From positions 1-25,002 of the IMG/VR virus record IMGVR_UViG_3300045971_000133: 25,002 nucleotides of DNA; one strand, written 5' to 3'. The position numbers were made by a program, and so were the translations under genes. This DNA comes from a virus. Position 1 is the first letter of the stretch. Every line of letters begins with the position of its first letter. Below are positions 15,801-21,917 of this stretch, piece after piece. Below the pieces are notes generated by a model. The model saw only the letters and a program-made list of their open reading frames with translations, made no database searches and was not told the origin of the DNA.

Positions 15801-16823
15801 TTAGGCCGAAGCGACGGTTTCAAGACGGTAGATCCAGGCATCGTTGAGGATGACCGAACCGCACATGGCCTTCCAGCCCAGGCTGAACCACTGACCCAGG
15901 GGATTCGCGTGATCCTGGCTAGAAGCAGGCGTGTAGAAGATGTTGGCAGCAGAGGCCAGATCGACCACGGTGTAGGCTTCCTTGCCGAAGATCAGGGCGG
16001 GGTAACGGTCAGAGTTGACGCCCGTGGTGGACTTGGTGCCAGCAACGGCAGCACCAGAGTCAGGGAAGATCTTGGCGAGGGTGCTGGTGACGAAACGGAT
16101 GTTGCGGTAGGAACCGACTTCACCCTTCATCAGACCGGCATTGCTGCTGTAGTTAGCCGCAGGCACATAGTCAGGCACACTCTCAAGGTCAAACTCAACG
16201 TCAGGGTGAATGACAGCGATGTAGGCTTTACGGACAGCCTGGGTCGCAATCTTCGTGGTCGCGTCGATCTGTTCCTGGTAGAACTTGGCGTCAGCACCCT
16301 TGAGGATACGGGCAACCTTATCAAGCGCCACGGCATTGATCTTGCCAGCCACAGTAGCGATACCACCCGCGCCGATGGTGCCGATGGAGTCAGTCAAACG
16401 GCCAAAGTTCGTGCCGCCCATGATGCCGTCACGATACACGGTTTCGATGGTCTGAGCCATGTTCTCGGAATTGCGGCTCATCAGTTCGGTGTCAACGCTC
16501 ACTTCATTGATCCACTCGGCCTGATCCGACACGCGGAAGAGGTTGCCGTACTGCGCCAGGGTCAAAGTGACCGTGGTGATGGTGGGCTGGGTATCAGTGG
16601 GGATGGTGCCTTCAACCAGGGTCTTGATGGTCGCGGCGTCCTTGCCAGTGGTAGGAGCGATACGCTCATAGCGCCGGAAGGCCATGGTCTTGCTGTTCTT
16701 CTGGGGGATGCTGTTCTTCAGCCCATACTCGCCAATGACGATGTTGGGTTCAGCAACCGAGAGGCCCTTGCGCTGAATGTACTGGGTAAGGGCGGTAAGC
16801 GTAGCGGAGGTGGTGATTGCCAT
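15801..16823 (-). CDS. Major capsid protein, N4-gp56 family
   Basis: The 340-residue protein is recognised as the N4-gp56 family of HK97-fold major capsid proteins. Typical elements are the early KNSKTMAFRRYERI segment at about 43-56, LVEGTIPTDTQPTITTVTLTLAQYGNLFRVSDQAEW at about 68-103, YRDGIMGGTNFGRL at about 129-142, AYIAVIHPDVEFDL at about 199-212, and the C-terminal FGKEAYTVVDL and DHANPLGQWFSLGWKAMCGSVILNDAWIYRLETVA. It assembles the procapsid around the scaffold encoded just upstream. AAAGGA precedes the ATG. The codon pattern is G+C-richer than neighbours, as is common for highly expressed phage genes. A stable hairpin follows the gene. Confidence 0.95.
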   Translation of the reverse strand: MAITTSATLTALTQYIQRKGLSVAEPNIVIGEYGLKNSIPQKNSKTMAFRRYERIAPTTGKDAATIKTLVEGTIPTDTQPTITTVTLTLAQYGNLFRVSDQAEWINEVSVDTELMSRNSENMAQTIETVYRDGIMGGTNFGRLTDSIGTIGAGGIATVAGKINAVALDKVARILKGADAKFYQEQIDATTKIATQAVRKAYIAVIHPDVEFDLESVPDYVPAANYSSNAGLMKGEVGSYRNIRFVTSTLAKIFPDSGAAVAGTKSTTGVNSDRYPALIFGKEAYTVVDLASAANIFYTPASSQDHANPLGQWFSLGWKAMCGSVILNDAWIYRLETVASA

Positions 16824-16835
16824 TTCCTTGTTCCT

Positions 16836-17498
16836 TTAGCGTTTGCGCCGGGCCATTTCGACCTTTGCTTCATGGGCTGCGAACTCTGCGTCCGTAAGAT
16901 TGCCCCAGTCGACATTGCCTAGCGCACTGGTGTTTTTGGAGGGAGACGTTCCAGTAGAACTCTCCGTGAAAGTGCGACTACGAGTTTCCTGTTTGGAGGA
17001 TTTGCCCCGTTCAGAGTTCAATCCTTTTGCCAGGCGAACCATGAGGGTTGGAGAACTAAGAATCAAATCCTGCTCAGCCTTGGGCATCGACTCAATCTCC
17101 CGAGCCAAGTCCTGCCGGATGTCATCAAAGTTAGGGATGTTCCGCTCGATGTAGTCAATGTTGGCTTGCACCCTTGCCTGTTCCGCGAGTCCAGTAAGCT
17201 GACTCTTCAGTTGGGCGTTCTCATCTACGAGAGGCTGCATGGCCTTACGGACTACAGGAGCAATAACACGCTCCACATCAGGGTCAACCGGCGTTTCCGG
17301 GGCTTTCTGCTGCTGATATTGCTGCATCTGCCAAAGTTTGTGCTGATGCAACTCTTCAGCTTGCCGACGAAGCGTTTCCCGCATCTCTTTCAGTTCATCA
17401 GGATCAACCTCGACTCGCCTAGGCTTCTCGGGTTCTACCGGTTGAACTTCAGTTTCTGTGGTTTCAACTTCCCCGCCTTCAACTTCTTCTGGGCTCAT
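16836..17498 (-). CDS. Scaffold protein
   Basis: The 220-residue product has an acidic, Glu/Pro/Val-rich N-terminus (about 1-35). A helical coiled-coil-like segment follows (about 35-75, KEMRETLRRQAEELHQHK). The central helical region is about 85-165. A Ser/Thr-rich linker leads to a short basic C-terminus (EFAAHEAKVEMARRKR), the usual capsid-binding helix of scaffolds. Its place immediately before the major capsid gene supports assignment as the procapsid scaffold. GGAGGG lies just before the ATG at 17498. No protease motif is seen. Confidence 0.82.
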   Translation of the reverse strand: MSPEEVEGGEVETTETEVQPVEPEKPRRVEVDPDELKEMRETLRRQAEELHQHKLWQMQQYQQQKAPETPVDPDVERVIAPVVRKAMQPLVDENAQLKSQLTGLAEQARVQANIDYIERNIPNFDDIRQDLAREIESMPKAEQDLILSSPTLMVRLAKGLNSERGKSSKQETRSRTFTESSTGTSPSKNTSALGNVDWGNLTDAEFAAHEAKVEMARRKR

Positions 17499-17546
17499 AG
17501 TCCCTCCAAAAATTGATGTTTAACGTCATCGCTGACATAACGTGGA

Positions 17547-17744
17547 TTATTGCAGGTTATCAAAGAGTTTGGCAATACGGAATGTTAGGTCTTTAAACCC
17601 TTCCCTCTTACCGACGAGAGCCAGCAAGTTGCTGTGGGTCAGGTCCAGCGGTTGGTGCGCCATGCTGTTCTGCCATTCCAGCCAGCGAAGAAACGCCTGA
17701 AGGTCCGGGTTGACTGCCAGACGCATTAGCGCCTCCCGGTCCAC
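17547..17744 (-). CDS. Small protein overlapping the 3' end of the portal gene out of frame
   Basis: The reading frame differs from that of the portal, yet it encodes a well-balanced helical protein: REALMRLAVNPDLQAFLRWLEWQ, then SNLLALVGKREGFKDLTFRIAKLFDNLQ. Small phage proteins of similar pattern occur downstream of portal genes, so it is probably real. Three starts are possible. GTG at 17744 (65 aa) has AAGGA upstream and keeps the conserved-looking VDREAL start. ATG at 17726 (59 aa) has GGGAGG five bases upstream. TTG at 17810 (87 aa) has AGGAG seven bases upstream but adds a low-complexity N-terminus. I use the GTG with low certainty. The overlap with the portal is 137 bases. Function is unknown. 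Confidence 0.6.
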   Translation of the reverse strand: MDREALMRLAVNPDLQAFLRWLEWQNSMAHQPLDLTHSNLLALVGKREGFKDLTFRIAKLFDNLQ

Positions 17745-19575
17745 CTGATCCTTGGTTGGATCCGGCCTGCTGCATTGCAAGTTGCTGAGCGAACTGTTGC
17801 TGTTGTTCAAGTTGAATCTCCTGGTCCGTCTTGATGTACTTCCAAGCGTTGTGAAGTCTTGCGAGACTAAACAAGTCCTTCGTCAACTCATTCCACTTAA
17901 TTACAGCAGCCCCCGGCGACTGAGCAATAACGCTCATTAACTGAATGGTCTGCCCCATCTGCTGTTGGGAGTTTGCGACATTGGCCGCGCCGACTGCATA
18001 GCAATCGAAATTTCCCTCAATGTCAGATGGGGAGACTTTCAGTTGCACCGGGGCCTGCTGGGTGACAGGCATCCCAGTCATAGGATCAAACACTGTTTGG
18101 GTCATGGGATCTCCCACAACCCGAATCCAGACCTCTTCGTCCATCAATTGCTGGTTCAACTGCATCTGCATACGCAAAATAGGCGTCAGAATGCTGTATT
18201 CGATGTGCTTAATCGTCTCTGCGTTGCGGCTCTGGGTCATTCCGGCACTCGCAGCGACCTCAGTGGCACTCTTTTGGTACGCTTCTGAGGTAAAAGAAGC
18301 CTGAGCACCCGTCGATTGGTTGTGCTGAGCCAACATGAAGCCAATTTCCTGGAATCCTAGCGCAGCCTGCGGAATTTGCTGAACTGGCTGGATATTCCCC
18401 TGCTGAGCTACGAAATTGACTGCTCCGGGGGCACTTAGCCACTCATTGGCATCAAAAACACCGTCCTGGACGACTGAATAGGAGGGGTTGATGATGAGGG
18501 TATTGGCTTCAATGACCTGATTCATCCTTACATTGATGACATCCTGAAGGCCAAGGGCGGGTTCGATGATGCCTCGACCATAAACCTCGCCGGGTTCAGG
18601 GTAAAGGACGGCCATATTCCAGGAACACTTGCCATGAGCAAACGGACTAGGCTCAAAACGGATTACTTTTGAACGGTTCGCAATAACCAGGATGTGATTT
18701 TTGAAGATAACCGTTCCTTCAGGCGTAGGTAGCTCAAGATCACCCTCAAACTGTAGAAGTTCCACCTGCCCCTTAGGTTGCTCAATGAATCCCTCAAGGC
18801 GATATACCTCTCTTTTAAGTCCGTCCGAAGGTTCGTTCTGCCCGTCATTAGACTGCACATCTTCCACCCCCTCATAGATTGAGTAACCGTCTGTGTTCTG
18901 CATATCCAAGAGGTAGGCTTTGCTTTTGAAGGTTCGCATACAGCGGGGTGCGTGATCGGGATTATTTGGGTGTCTTTCGATCACAAAGTCGAAAATATTC
19001 CCGATCTCGACTACCGGACCATCATAAGTCCGCTGTTCCTTCATCGGCATGGCTTCCATTGGCGGGGGTTCTACCGAAGCGCCTACCAACTGGGCCTGAA
19101 GCGAGGACTGAGCCAACTGACTGATGAAAGCGCCCTCATCGGGAACGATCTGCTTCCGTTCCTCCCAGTTAACGCAATACGGCACATTCCCAAAGATCGT
19201 CAGATACTTGACCAACTGATGGAACTTGGTGCGAAAGCCGGTCTGCTGGTGCTGCCACATCAAAAGGCCCTGATTCGCCTTCGACTTGGCATCATCATCA
19301 GGAGTCCGGCCCATCACTTCAAACCACTCATCATAGGGCATCACGCCCTGGGTCAGATGGGCAGCTACTGCCTCAACCGACTGCTGAGTGACGGGAATAT
19401 AGCGTTTGGAGCGAAAGTCCTGTAGGTTATCCCAGGTCTTACCGAACTTAGAGACAGAAGCCAGCCAGCATTCCTGCCAGATCCGTTCCTTTTCCAGACG
19501 CTCGTTCTTCCGTTCCCGCCACCAGGTATTGGCCCAGGTTACGAATCCAGAGGTATCAACGTCTTTGCGGATCAT
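17608..19575 (-). CDS. Portal protein (head-to-tail connector)
   Basis: The 655-residue protein is a podovirus head-to-tail connecting protein of the T7-portal type. Features include the N-terminal helical segment WRERKNERLEKERIWQECWLA, LQDFRSKRYIPVTQQSVEAVAAHLTQGVMPYDEWFEV, and the middle region EPGEVYGRGIIEPALGLQDVINVRMNQVIEANTLIINPSY. Later come RNAETIKHIEYSILTPILRMQMQLNQQLMDEEVWIRVVGDP and VGAANVANSQQQMGQTIQLM. Twelve copies form the ring through which DNA is packaged. The C-terminal 75 residues are Gln-, Gly-, Ser- and Pro-rich and lie over another gene in a different frame. The ATG has only a weak GGTGG upstream. Confidence 0.9.
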   Translation of the reverse strand: MIRKDVDTSGFVTWANTWWRERKNERLEKERIWQECWLASVSKFGKTWDNLQDFRSKRYIPVTQQSVEAVAAHLTQGVMPYDEWFEVMGRTPDDDAKSKANQGLLMWQHQQTGFRTKFHQLVKYLTIFGNVPYCVNWEERKQIVPDEGAFISQLAQSSLQAQLVGASVEPPPMEAMPMKEQRTYDGPVVEIGNIFDFVIERHPNNPDHAPRCMRTFKSKAYLLDMQNTDGYSIYEGVEDVQSNDGQNEPSDGLKREVYRLEGFIEQPKGQVELLQFEGDLELPTPEGTVIFKNHILVIANRSKVIRFEPSPFAHGKCSWNMAVLYPEPGEVYGRGIIEPALGLQDVINVRMNQVIEANTLIINPSYSVVQDGVFDANEWLSAPGAVNFVAQQGNIQPVQQIPQAALGFQEIGFMLAQHNQSTGAQASFTSEAYQKSATEVAASAGMTQSRNAETIKHIEYSILTPILRMQMQLNQQLMDEEVWIRVVGDPMTQTVFDPMTGMPVTQQAPVQLKVSPSDIEGNFDCYAVGAANVANSQQQMGQTIQLMSVIAQSPGAAVIKWNELTKDLFSLARLHNAWKYIKTDQEIQLEQQQQFAQQLAMQQAGSNQGSGGPGGANASGSQPGPSGVSSLAGMAEQHGAPTAGPDPQQLAGSRR

Positions 19576-20037: not shown

Positions 20038-21486
20038 TCACTGACAACCAAATGATCCAAACTGCTGTAAAAGTTTTTTATTACGCATTGTCACACTATG
20101 ATCTGCCTTCTGGTCTTCAAAGGTCTTGATATTGCGTCTCAGTAGGTAGCATAGACAATCGCAGGCATGATCTTCACCGTCCGTATCGTATTGCTCAAGG
20201 TTCGTGCTGTCCGTCTGCAAGGAAGGCAAGGTGCGAATCAAATTTCGAGCGACATCCATCACTTTGAGTCTCGCACTCCCATTGACAACCTTTAGGTAGT
20301 CTCTCAAGAGGGAGATAGAACCAGCCTTGTTCTTCTTCTGGGATTTCTGGAAGTGCAGTGACCCACCTTGCGGGGAAGCAAATTGGGCTGAGATAGTGGT
20401 CCCCAGGCCCAGGTCGTCCCAGCACGAAGCATCCAGATAGCGTTCCGTGATCCATTCGTCAGCCTCCAGTTCTATCGACCGAATCAACTGCCCGACTTCA
20501 TACGCGCCCTTCCTATTGCCAACATTCGGCTTACCATCCGAACCATACAACTCACGGTAGATATAAACATCGCCATTAGGACTAACAGCGCCCCAAAGGA
20601 AGCAATAAGGCTTGCTGCTACCCCAGTCACCAGCCATCCAGCGTTTCCAGTCCTTTGGCGGATTAAAGCCCTTGACCACATGAACACTTGGGTTCCATTC
20701 CTCAAAGAACGCTCCTTCCACCACATCCCATCTTCCGTCCAGCAACATCCTCTTCTGGGCATCCGGAAGGGACAGCAACCTAGCTCGATACTCTCCGTCA
20801 TTATCCAAGAAGGCGTTATCAGCCAACCGACCAGGGATGAAGATACGGGTCCGGCGTTTGATGTTCTCAGGGAGGTCAGAGTCCTTGACCTTATCCAGGG
20901 AAGGATCCTCAAAGGCCCTATTCTCAATTATGTCAAGGTAGGTATGGTGAGGACGCATCCCAGAGGGGTTAGAGTCCACAAAGAAGCGTTTCATCACCCA
21001 CACATGGCCTGGACCACCTGGGTTTGTTGTCGCAATGATCCTAGTTGGAACACCTGCGGCACTTCTCATGCGGGACTGAATAAAAATATACTCGTCGTCA
21101 GTAGGCCAAAGCGTTAATTCATCCCAAGAAGCGTGTGAATACTGGAATCCTCGGTGCTGAAGGGCATCTTCATAGGATTCAATATATGCAAGACGCTGTG
21201 TTGCCCCGTTAGGAAAGGTCCAACTCTTACTCTTGTCCTTGTAGGTTGCTCCGATAGCCCCATAAATCTCATGGGATCGCCTCAGAACTTCCTCAAATTC
21301 GGGGAATGACTTACGGAAAAGGACACCTACCGCAGCTTTACCGTATAGGTTGGCATGATTTAGGAAGTCTCCAAGCAAACCGTCTGTCTTCCCGCCCCCC
21401 GCTGCACCACCATAAAGGATTTCGCTGTACGGGCAACTGATAAAGATACGCTGACGCTCCTGGGGTTGCCACGCAATGACCGTCAT
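20038..21486 (-). CDS. terL: Terminase large subunit (packaging ATPase and nuclease)
   Basis: The 482-residue protein carries all expected parts. The ATPase Walker A is GGAAGGGKT at residues 26-34, Walker B is in SHASWDEL with D122-E123, and the coupling motif ATTNPGG is at 152-158. The RNase-H-like nuclease domain begins around residue 280 with AGDWGS (D287), a second acidic strand lies near 346-358 (ERYLDASCWDD), and a third acidic cluster lies at DGEDHACD (436-443). It drives DNA into the procapsid through the portal and cuts concatemers. Its ATG overlaps the stop of the small-subunit gene as ATGA with no strong Shine-Dalgarno, so its translation is likely coupled. Confidence 0.95.
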   Translation of the reverse strand: MTVIAWQPQERQRIFISCPYSEILYGGAAGGGKTDGLLGDFLNHANLYGKAAVGVLFRKSFPEFEEVLRRSHEIYGAIGATYKDKSKSWTFPNGATQRLAYIESYEDALQHRGFQYSHASWDELTLWPTDDEYIFIQSRMRSAAGVPTRIIATTNPGGPGHVWVMKRFFVDSNPSGMRPHHTYLDIIENRAFEDPSLDKVKDSDLPENIKRRTRIFIPGRLADNAFLDNDGEYRARLLSLPDAQKRMLLDGRWDVVEGAFFEEWNPSVHVVKGFNPPKDWKRWMAGDWGSSKPYCFLWGAVSPNGDVYIYRELYGSDGKPNVGNRKGAYEVGQLIRSIELEADEWITERYLDASCWDDLGLGTTISAQFASPQGGSLHFQKSQKKNKAGSISLLRDYLKVVNGSARLKVMDVARNLIRTLPSLQTDSTNLEQYDTDGEDHACDCLCYLLRRNIKTFEDQKADHSVTMRNKKLLQQFGSFGCQ

Positions 21487-21917
21487 ACGATCTTTTCTTC
21501 AAGCCAAGGGATAACTTCAGCGTCCTCAACCTGATTGTTCTGGTCCAACCACTCCTGGGAGGTCATGGAAGGGGGCAGAATGACAATGTTGTGCTGAGTC
21601 GTCTGCTCGATGTGGATTTCCTTGGGAATCTGGGTAGCCATCAACTTAGCTGCCTCACCGGGGTTCTTCAAGGCCCAGTCCACGAACCGAATCCGATACT
21701 CAGGTTGCATCATAAGACTAACCATAGCCTCTGAAGCCAGCTTCTGCTTAGCCCGAGAGGTCATCGAATGATCCCCACCGAACTTAACCAACTGCTTCAA
21801 CTGGGAGGAAAGCCCCTCAACTAAGTTCTTCTGAACCCCATAGGCATCAGGATCAATCTCTTCAACCTCTGAATCATATAACTTGGGGCGACCCCCTCTA
21901 TCTTTAGGCACCTTCAC
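21483..21917 (-). CDS. terS: Putative terminase small subunit
   Basis: The 144-residue product is the first gene of the late operon and overlaps terL by four bases, the classical place of the small terminase. It starts with a basic RGGRPKLYD segment. The central helices (GVQKNLVEGLSSQLKQLVKFGG, SRAKQKLASEAMVSLMMQPEYRIRFVDWAL) suit an oligomerising core, and the C-terminus is acidic (EWLDQNNQVEDAEVIPWLEEK), as is common for the TerL-binding tail. No clear helix-turn-helix is visible, so the assignment rests mainly on position and general layout. The GTG start has AGGAGG close upstream. Confidence 0.72.
   Translation of the reverse strand: MKVPKDRGGRPKLYDSEVEEIDPDAYGVQKNLVEGLSSQLKQLVKFGGDHSMTSRAKQKLASEAMVSLMMQPEYRIRFVDWALKNPGEAAKLMATQIPKEIHIEQTTQHNIVILPPSMTSQEWLDQNNQVEDAEVIPWLEEKIV

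Follow-up and report, generated by a model that had tools for sequence, protein, structure and literature searches.

In the phages SU10 and phiEco32, the portal gene is followed, in the slot between portal and scaffold, by a small gene for a protein of 78 amino acids (SU10 gp7, phiEco32 gp9; phrog_12967). The SU10 proteomic study reports the detection by mass spectrometry of 34 of 125 proteins, including gp6, gp8 and gp9 but not gp7 (PMC4281155), which is weak evidence for a protein so small, and gp7 is not mentioned in the main text of the SU10 structure paper (PMC9509320). Two small genes follow the portal gene in Bordetella phage BPP-1, and Bbp19 (phrog_528) of this phage is encoded between the portal gene and a gene annotated as protease, ahead of the major head gene. 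In Zobellviridae, the phrog_8956 proteins (CW02 gp50, PA11 ORF046) occupy the same slot, and several of their genes touch or overlap the portal end, by 1, 4 or 35 nt. In PhiGT1, three small genes of unknown function are described as congruent with the portal, scaffold and capsid genes (PMC10386132). Among 27 phage records matched by the portal, 11 were fetched and the 10 annotated ones compared, the unannotated CHP58 being left out. A small gene directly follows the portal in six of the ten (MaAM05, MEP401, MEP402, ctOsX528, CW02 and T5S1) and is absent from this place in the cyanophages PP, A-4L, TR020 and LPP-1. Seven further records, chosen from 69 matching the T5S1 protein, also have a small gene after the portal.

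The window analyzed here is a stretch of 25,002 bases, positions 1 to 25,002 of the uncultured virus record IMGVR_UViG_3300045971_000133. Its minus strand carries, in order, an ORF at 21483-21917, which is a putative small terminase by expected position only, the terminase large subunit gene (20038-21486), two small ORFs, the gene of the 655-residue portal protein (17608-19575; SU10_portal match, PF23899), the small frame studied here (17547-17810), a putative scaffold gene next downstream (16836-17498), and the major capsid gene (15801-16823). The scaffold assignment is based on position and on a weak match to its counterpart in the distant relative L147 (E 0.010). The ORF at 12638-13357 matches SU10_adaptor (PF24175), so that the window matches the two Pfam families named after the portal and the adaptor of the SU10/phiEco32 group. 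The interval that separates the small gene from the scaffold gene has a conserved stretch with the short hairpin GTCA-GCGA-TGAC (17525-17536, minus strand). It reads GACA-GCGA-TGTC in the relatives L002 and L003, where both sides have changed, probably in one inherited event, and the 22-base stretch containing it occurs once in the window. On the plus strand, an ORF of 337 codons (15909-16922) lies antisense to the major capsid gene; it is apparently a side effect of codon usage, since all four relatives tested carry two or three stops in that frame.

Read from the TTG at 17810, the small ORF encodes 87 amino acids in the +1 frame relative to the portal, shares 203 nt with the portal gene and extends 61 nt past the end of that gene. 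A preliminary description made from the sequence had noticed this second minus-strand frame, and both ORFs are indeed present; its overlap of at least 137 bases holds for a start at GTG 17744, whereas 203 nt were measured from TTG 17810. The low complexity that it ascribed to the portal tail was also found: the portal codons lying over the small ORF (17608-17811, minus strand; residues 589-655 and the stop) form a Gln/Gly/Ser/Pro/Ala-rich tail in which these five amino acids account for 50 of 67 residues. AlphaFold2 models are consistent with its view of the small protein as balanced and helical in that they consist of helices throughout, though their confidence is low (mean pLDDT 52.5 for the entire protein and 63.2 for the core).

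Selection in the two reading frames

A portal scan of a viral collection recovered five contigs (L002 to L006) with portals 78-82% identical to that of the window, and a scan with the alignment of the relatives' portals returned the same five. Scans with the small protein found three contigs from the single sequence and five from the alignment, all among these five, while the terminase found four of them. The major capsid protein recovered the five contigs plus L147 (IMGVR_UViG_3300005259_000019), the portal of which is 37% identical over residues 1-610. Scans of genome contigs with the portal and with the terminase found no relatives. As L002/L003 and L004/L005 are near-duplicates at this locus, the close relatives and the window amount to four lineages. 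Apart from the portal region, the terminase large-subunit gene of L147 (252-2582 in that contig) is interrupted by an insert resembling an intein; its Intein_splicing match (E 3.3e-7) scores 30.7 bits, short of the curated cut-off of 35.8. Within this insert, a 205-codon ORF in the +1 frame (1828-2445) matches an HNH_3 endonuclease (E 7.8e-13) and is possibly a homing endonuclease overprinted on the intein.

The small frame is open at the same place in all six contigs found with a portal relative, over 86 codons from the aligned NTG in L002 and L003, 88 in L004, L005 and L006, and 84 in L147. Openness alone is weak evidence. When the portal protein was held and its codons were mutated at the rate of the portal body, 46-83% of the simulated tails were free of stops in the small frame (tails with a stop, out of 3000 each: 800 for L002, 916 for L003, 497 for L004, 530 for L005 and 1627 for L006). 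The conservation of the encoded protein was not reproduced in this way, as none of the 3000 portal-only simulations reached the observed small-frame identity for any of the five relatives. The same was true of the core alone (residues 26-87; 17550-17735, minus strand), with none of 2000 simulations in each of the five pairs.

Substitutions at individual codon positions separate the two frames. Across the four lineages, 27 of 207 comparisons at fourfold sites of the portal differ within the overlap (0.13), against a mean of 0.61 and a minimum of 0.475 in the portal body, where all 521 equal-length windows, which overlap one another, exceed the overlap value. In the core overlap, the divergence of portal base 3, the second base of the small frame, is 0.128 versus 0.489 in the body, whereas portal base 1, the wobble base of the small frame, is at 0.182 versus 0.159 and portal base 2 at 0.085 versus 0.101. 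A second coding frame would be expected to cause a drop limited to portal base 3, whereas a general RNA constraint would not. The part of the small ORF past the portal stop (17547-17607, minus strand) has a gene-like substitution pattern as well: its 18 codons lying wholly past the stop give pS 0.69 and pN 0.17. A 21-codon version, the first two codons and part of the third of which lie over the portal, gives 0.66 and 0.15, and the contrast is lost when this stretch is shifted by one or two bases (0.16/0.28 and 0.24/0.23).

Taken together, these results show purifying selection on the small frame, both in the core overlap and downstream of the portal stop. Within the overlap, the portal frame appears to be kept too, because portal base 1 changes little in comparison with the codons downstream of that stop, where pS is about 0.7. 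The comparison of synonymous and non-synonymous change in both frames thus strongly supports the earlier proposal of a real second gene overprinted on the portal end; homologues of the small frame are present in the relatives and free of frame-breaking changes, and the portal is not the only frame conserved. From the sequence evidence, we consider it probable that the frame at 17547-17810 is a genuine protein-coding gene which overlaps the portal 3' end by 203 nt and specifies a separate protein.

Relative age of the two frames

The preliminary description had suggested that the small frame is the older one and that the portal tail was extended over it. Comparison of the window with L147 adds support to this suggestion, and in several other phage groups a small gene that is separate from the portal gene or overlaps it little stands directly behind it. 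The small core can be aligned between the two (z 5.0, 0/2000 shuffles), whereas the portal tail after its Gln run cannot be aligned beyond composition (z 0.5, 584/2000), and inclusion of the Gln run gives z 2.9 (18/2000). For the whole small protein, 3 of 2000 shuffles reached the score of the window-L147 pair in a second run, and the whole L147 protein compared with the four lineages gave 0, 0, 81 and 65 of 2000. A profile built without L147 ranked the right segment first, although weakly, among 248 L147 segments (E 0.024) and again placed it at the top of 3074 segments from 22 loci (E 0.3). The homology with L147 rests on this similarity together with agreement in position, frame, start column and length. 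In codon preference, the two frames cannot be told apart (0.010 vs 0.025).

The small core may thus be the older and dominant coding sequence, an assignment made with less certainty than the existence of the gene. The low-complexity tail of the portal would have been tolerant enough to run over it. It is somewhat unlikely that, conversely, the portal tail is ancestral and that the small gene was born within the tail and the adjoining spacer. Such an origin would agree with the long Gln/Pro/Ala-rich tails of four cyanophage portals of the Saffermanviridae type, which have no such gene, and with the lack of a detectable homologue of the small protein outside the group in the collections searched. 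The former fact, along with the lack of detectable homology to the slot genes found elsewhere, counts against any firm polarity. At the longest distance, however, it is the small core that is conserved and not the portal tail beyond the Gln run. A search for a hidden second frame in the four cyanophage portals found none shared among them.

Start site and onset of constraint

The likeliest start of the small protein is, from the comparative evidence, the TTG at 17810 (17808-17810, minus strand). An NTG is aligned at this place in five lineages (TTG in the window, L002 and L147, GTG in L004 and ATG in L006), although the portal residue above it differs (L, I, S, N or F). The chance of a shared NTG, given the portal residues and codon usage, is about 0.009, a figure computed after the site had been seen. 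AGGAG or AGAGG stands 6-7 nt upstream in all five; in the window it is the AGGAG at 17818-17822, 7 nt before the TTG. The pairing energies with an E. coli-like anti-Shine-Dalgarno sequence are -7.4, -7.4, -6.5, -6.5 and -9.4 kcal/mol in the window, L002, L004, L006 and L147. In L006, a TAA directly precedes the ATG start. Three candidate starts, the number given in the preliminary description, show such pairing in the window: TTG 17810 (-7.4 kcal/mol), GTG 17744 (-5.2) and ATG 17726 (-10.3). A fourth candidate, the next TTG, stands at 17780 in the window (+0.9) and is present in the four near lineages, where no pairing was found (0.3 to 1.2). GTG 17744 and ATG 17726 are not common to the relatives, so that the notion of a new start having arisen within the portal fits ATG 17726, restricted to the window, and does not fit the shared NTG at 17810. 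This ATG behind GGGAGG (17724-17737, minus strand) may yield a second product of 59 amino acids.

The first residues of the small ORF evolve differently from the core. Residues 1-25 (17736-17810, minus strand; the tests split after residue 24) form a Ser/Asn-rich leader under little or no constraint in the small frame. Over portal columns 589-614, which correspond to small residues 1-24 in the window, identity is near that expected in the absence of a second frame (12/22 vs 11.4, 12/22 vs 10.1, 7/22 vs 6.7 and 12/22 vs 11.4). The fifth pair is marginal (15/25 vs 11.0), the observed value being reached by 86 of 2000 simulations. Gln codons of the leader change as they do in the body (0.42 vs 0.41). 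The leader fourfold sites change at 14 of 45 (0.31), under the 0.61 of the body, so that the leader may be weakly constrained. The third base of the portal codons is variable through column 615 and mostly invariant from column 616, which corresponds to E26 (17735), and the core from column 615 on is kept in all five pairs. With constraint in the small frame clear only near residue 26, the residues before it may be a leader that tolerates change, or else the core begins in some other way. The weakly constrained leader does not favour translation from 17810.

In the reading that we prefer, ribosomes would start within the portal reading frame and on the same mRNA, at a weak NTG (TTG in the window) preceded by a Shine-Dalgarno sequence. 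They would make a protein of about 10 kDa, in which a core of some 62 residues, probably helical, follows the tolerant leader rich in Ser and Asn. Since the leader is tolerant and the onset of constraint abrupt, about 25 codons into the ORF, internal initiation at the GGAGG near this onset and +1 frameshifting are kept as rival readings. A separate protein started near residues 26-31 behind this GGAGG, mostly from CTG and from ATG in the window, is quite unlikely. The coincidence of the onset with GGAGG would be accounted for, as would the strong pairing of ATG 17726 (-10.3 kcal/mol); a strong GGAGG is also present in L147, and an aligned CTG in all five lineages. On the other hand, L002 to L006 have ACT or ACC in place of ATG 17726, the CTG is some 11 nt away from GGAGG, and bacterial ribosomes initiate poorly at CTG. 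We regard as very unlikely that the core is an alternative C-terminus of some portal subunits, reached when ribosomes shift to the +1 frame within the portal tail. This would explain the sudden onset of constraint near residue 26, with little or none ahead of it, and the GGAGG at the core onset could act as a stimulator by analogy with prfB; but inspection revealed no shared slippery site, the four portal codons preceding the core varying at their third base (3, 3, 2 and 3 states), and the upstream NTG with its Shine-Dalgarno sequence is kept in five lineages. It is unlikely overall that the core is carried on a minority of portal subunits by frameshifting or is made from a non-standard start behind GGAGG. 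If it were, the portal ring would carry, or the phage would time, an alternative helical C-terminus or a short form. It is hardly credible that the portal alone is translated and that an RNA structure or packaging signal keeps synonymous change low: such constraint could by itself lower synonymous divergence, but the suppression is frame-specific, with portal base 1 as variable as in the body, the frame continues past the portal stop (pS 0.69, pN 0.17), and the covariation term is just -1.02 kcal/mol, no predicted pair in core columns 131-259 having changed on both sides, among pairs so nearly invariant that they give little power.

Possible role and comparison with known genes

Gene overlaps are already known, and the small protein is without a match to described families in the libraries searched. 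Searches of Pfam and PHROGs gave nothing above noise (phrog_34448 at E 0.3, 0.13 and 0.082). With tblastn, no homologue of the small protein was found in a phage collection, one run giving 18-residue chance matches at E 7-10, and a structure search of BFVD returned 16 matches at E up to 10, none at E 0.001. A limited search of the open-access literature found no paper describing a small gene that overlaps the gene of a portal and, among the general papers on overprinting listed, none concerning portals by title. Homology tests against proteins of the same slot covered phrog_8956 members, Bbp19, the 85-residue MaAM05 protein and SU10 gp7, none of which is a demonstrable homologue. By eye, homology to all four had seemed plausible. 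For phrog_8956 there was no profile match and an hhalign probability of 0.1, and the MaAM05 protein failed profile or shuffle tests. Bbp19 gave an hhalign P of 0.37, 109-269 of 1000 shuffles and no Pfam match at E 1 or 5. For SU10 gp7, the best of ten tests, obtained with L147 only, gave 18 of 1000 shuffles, and no match to phrog_12967 was seen.

The slot between portal and scaffold, the small and probably helical core and the weak start codon suggest an accessory of head assembly. Tentatively, and from its place between portal and scaffold, the small protein could be such an accessory of low abundance. As a conjecture from position, it might work with the portal or the scaffold during procapsid formation.

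In size, strand and slot, the small frame is like the phrog_8956 genes (61-87 amino acids among 12 aligned), which overlap the portal only shortly or not at all, against 203 nt here. SU10 gp7 and phiEco32 gp9 share its slot between portal and scaffold and, unlike our gene, do not overlap the portal. Bbp19 is small too, yet differs in its 115 amino acids and in that its gene overlaps the downstream gene and not the portal. A protein without family match is thereby added to the poorly understood portal-scaffold slot, where several phage groups carry small genes, and proteins of this kind could escape gene callers that do not permit long overlaps. One survey found overlaps of more than 50 nt, one or more per genome, in 61% of dsDNA virus genomes (PMC7017920). 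Compared with viral overlapping genes generally, the locus described here is a clear case of separable selection on two frames, resolved base by base. The wobble base of the portal is set by the small frame, the tail of the portal itself is poorly conserved at long distances, and the more deeply conserved frame is the small one.
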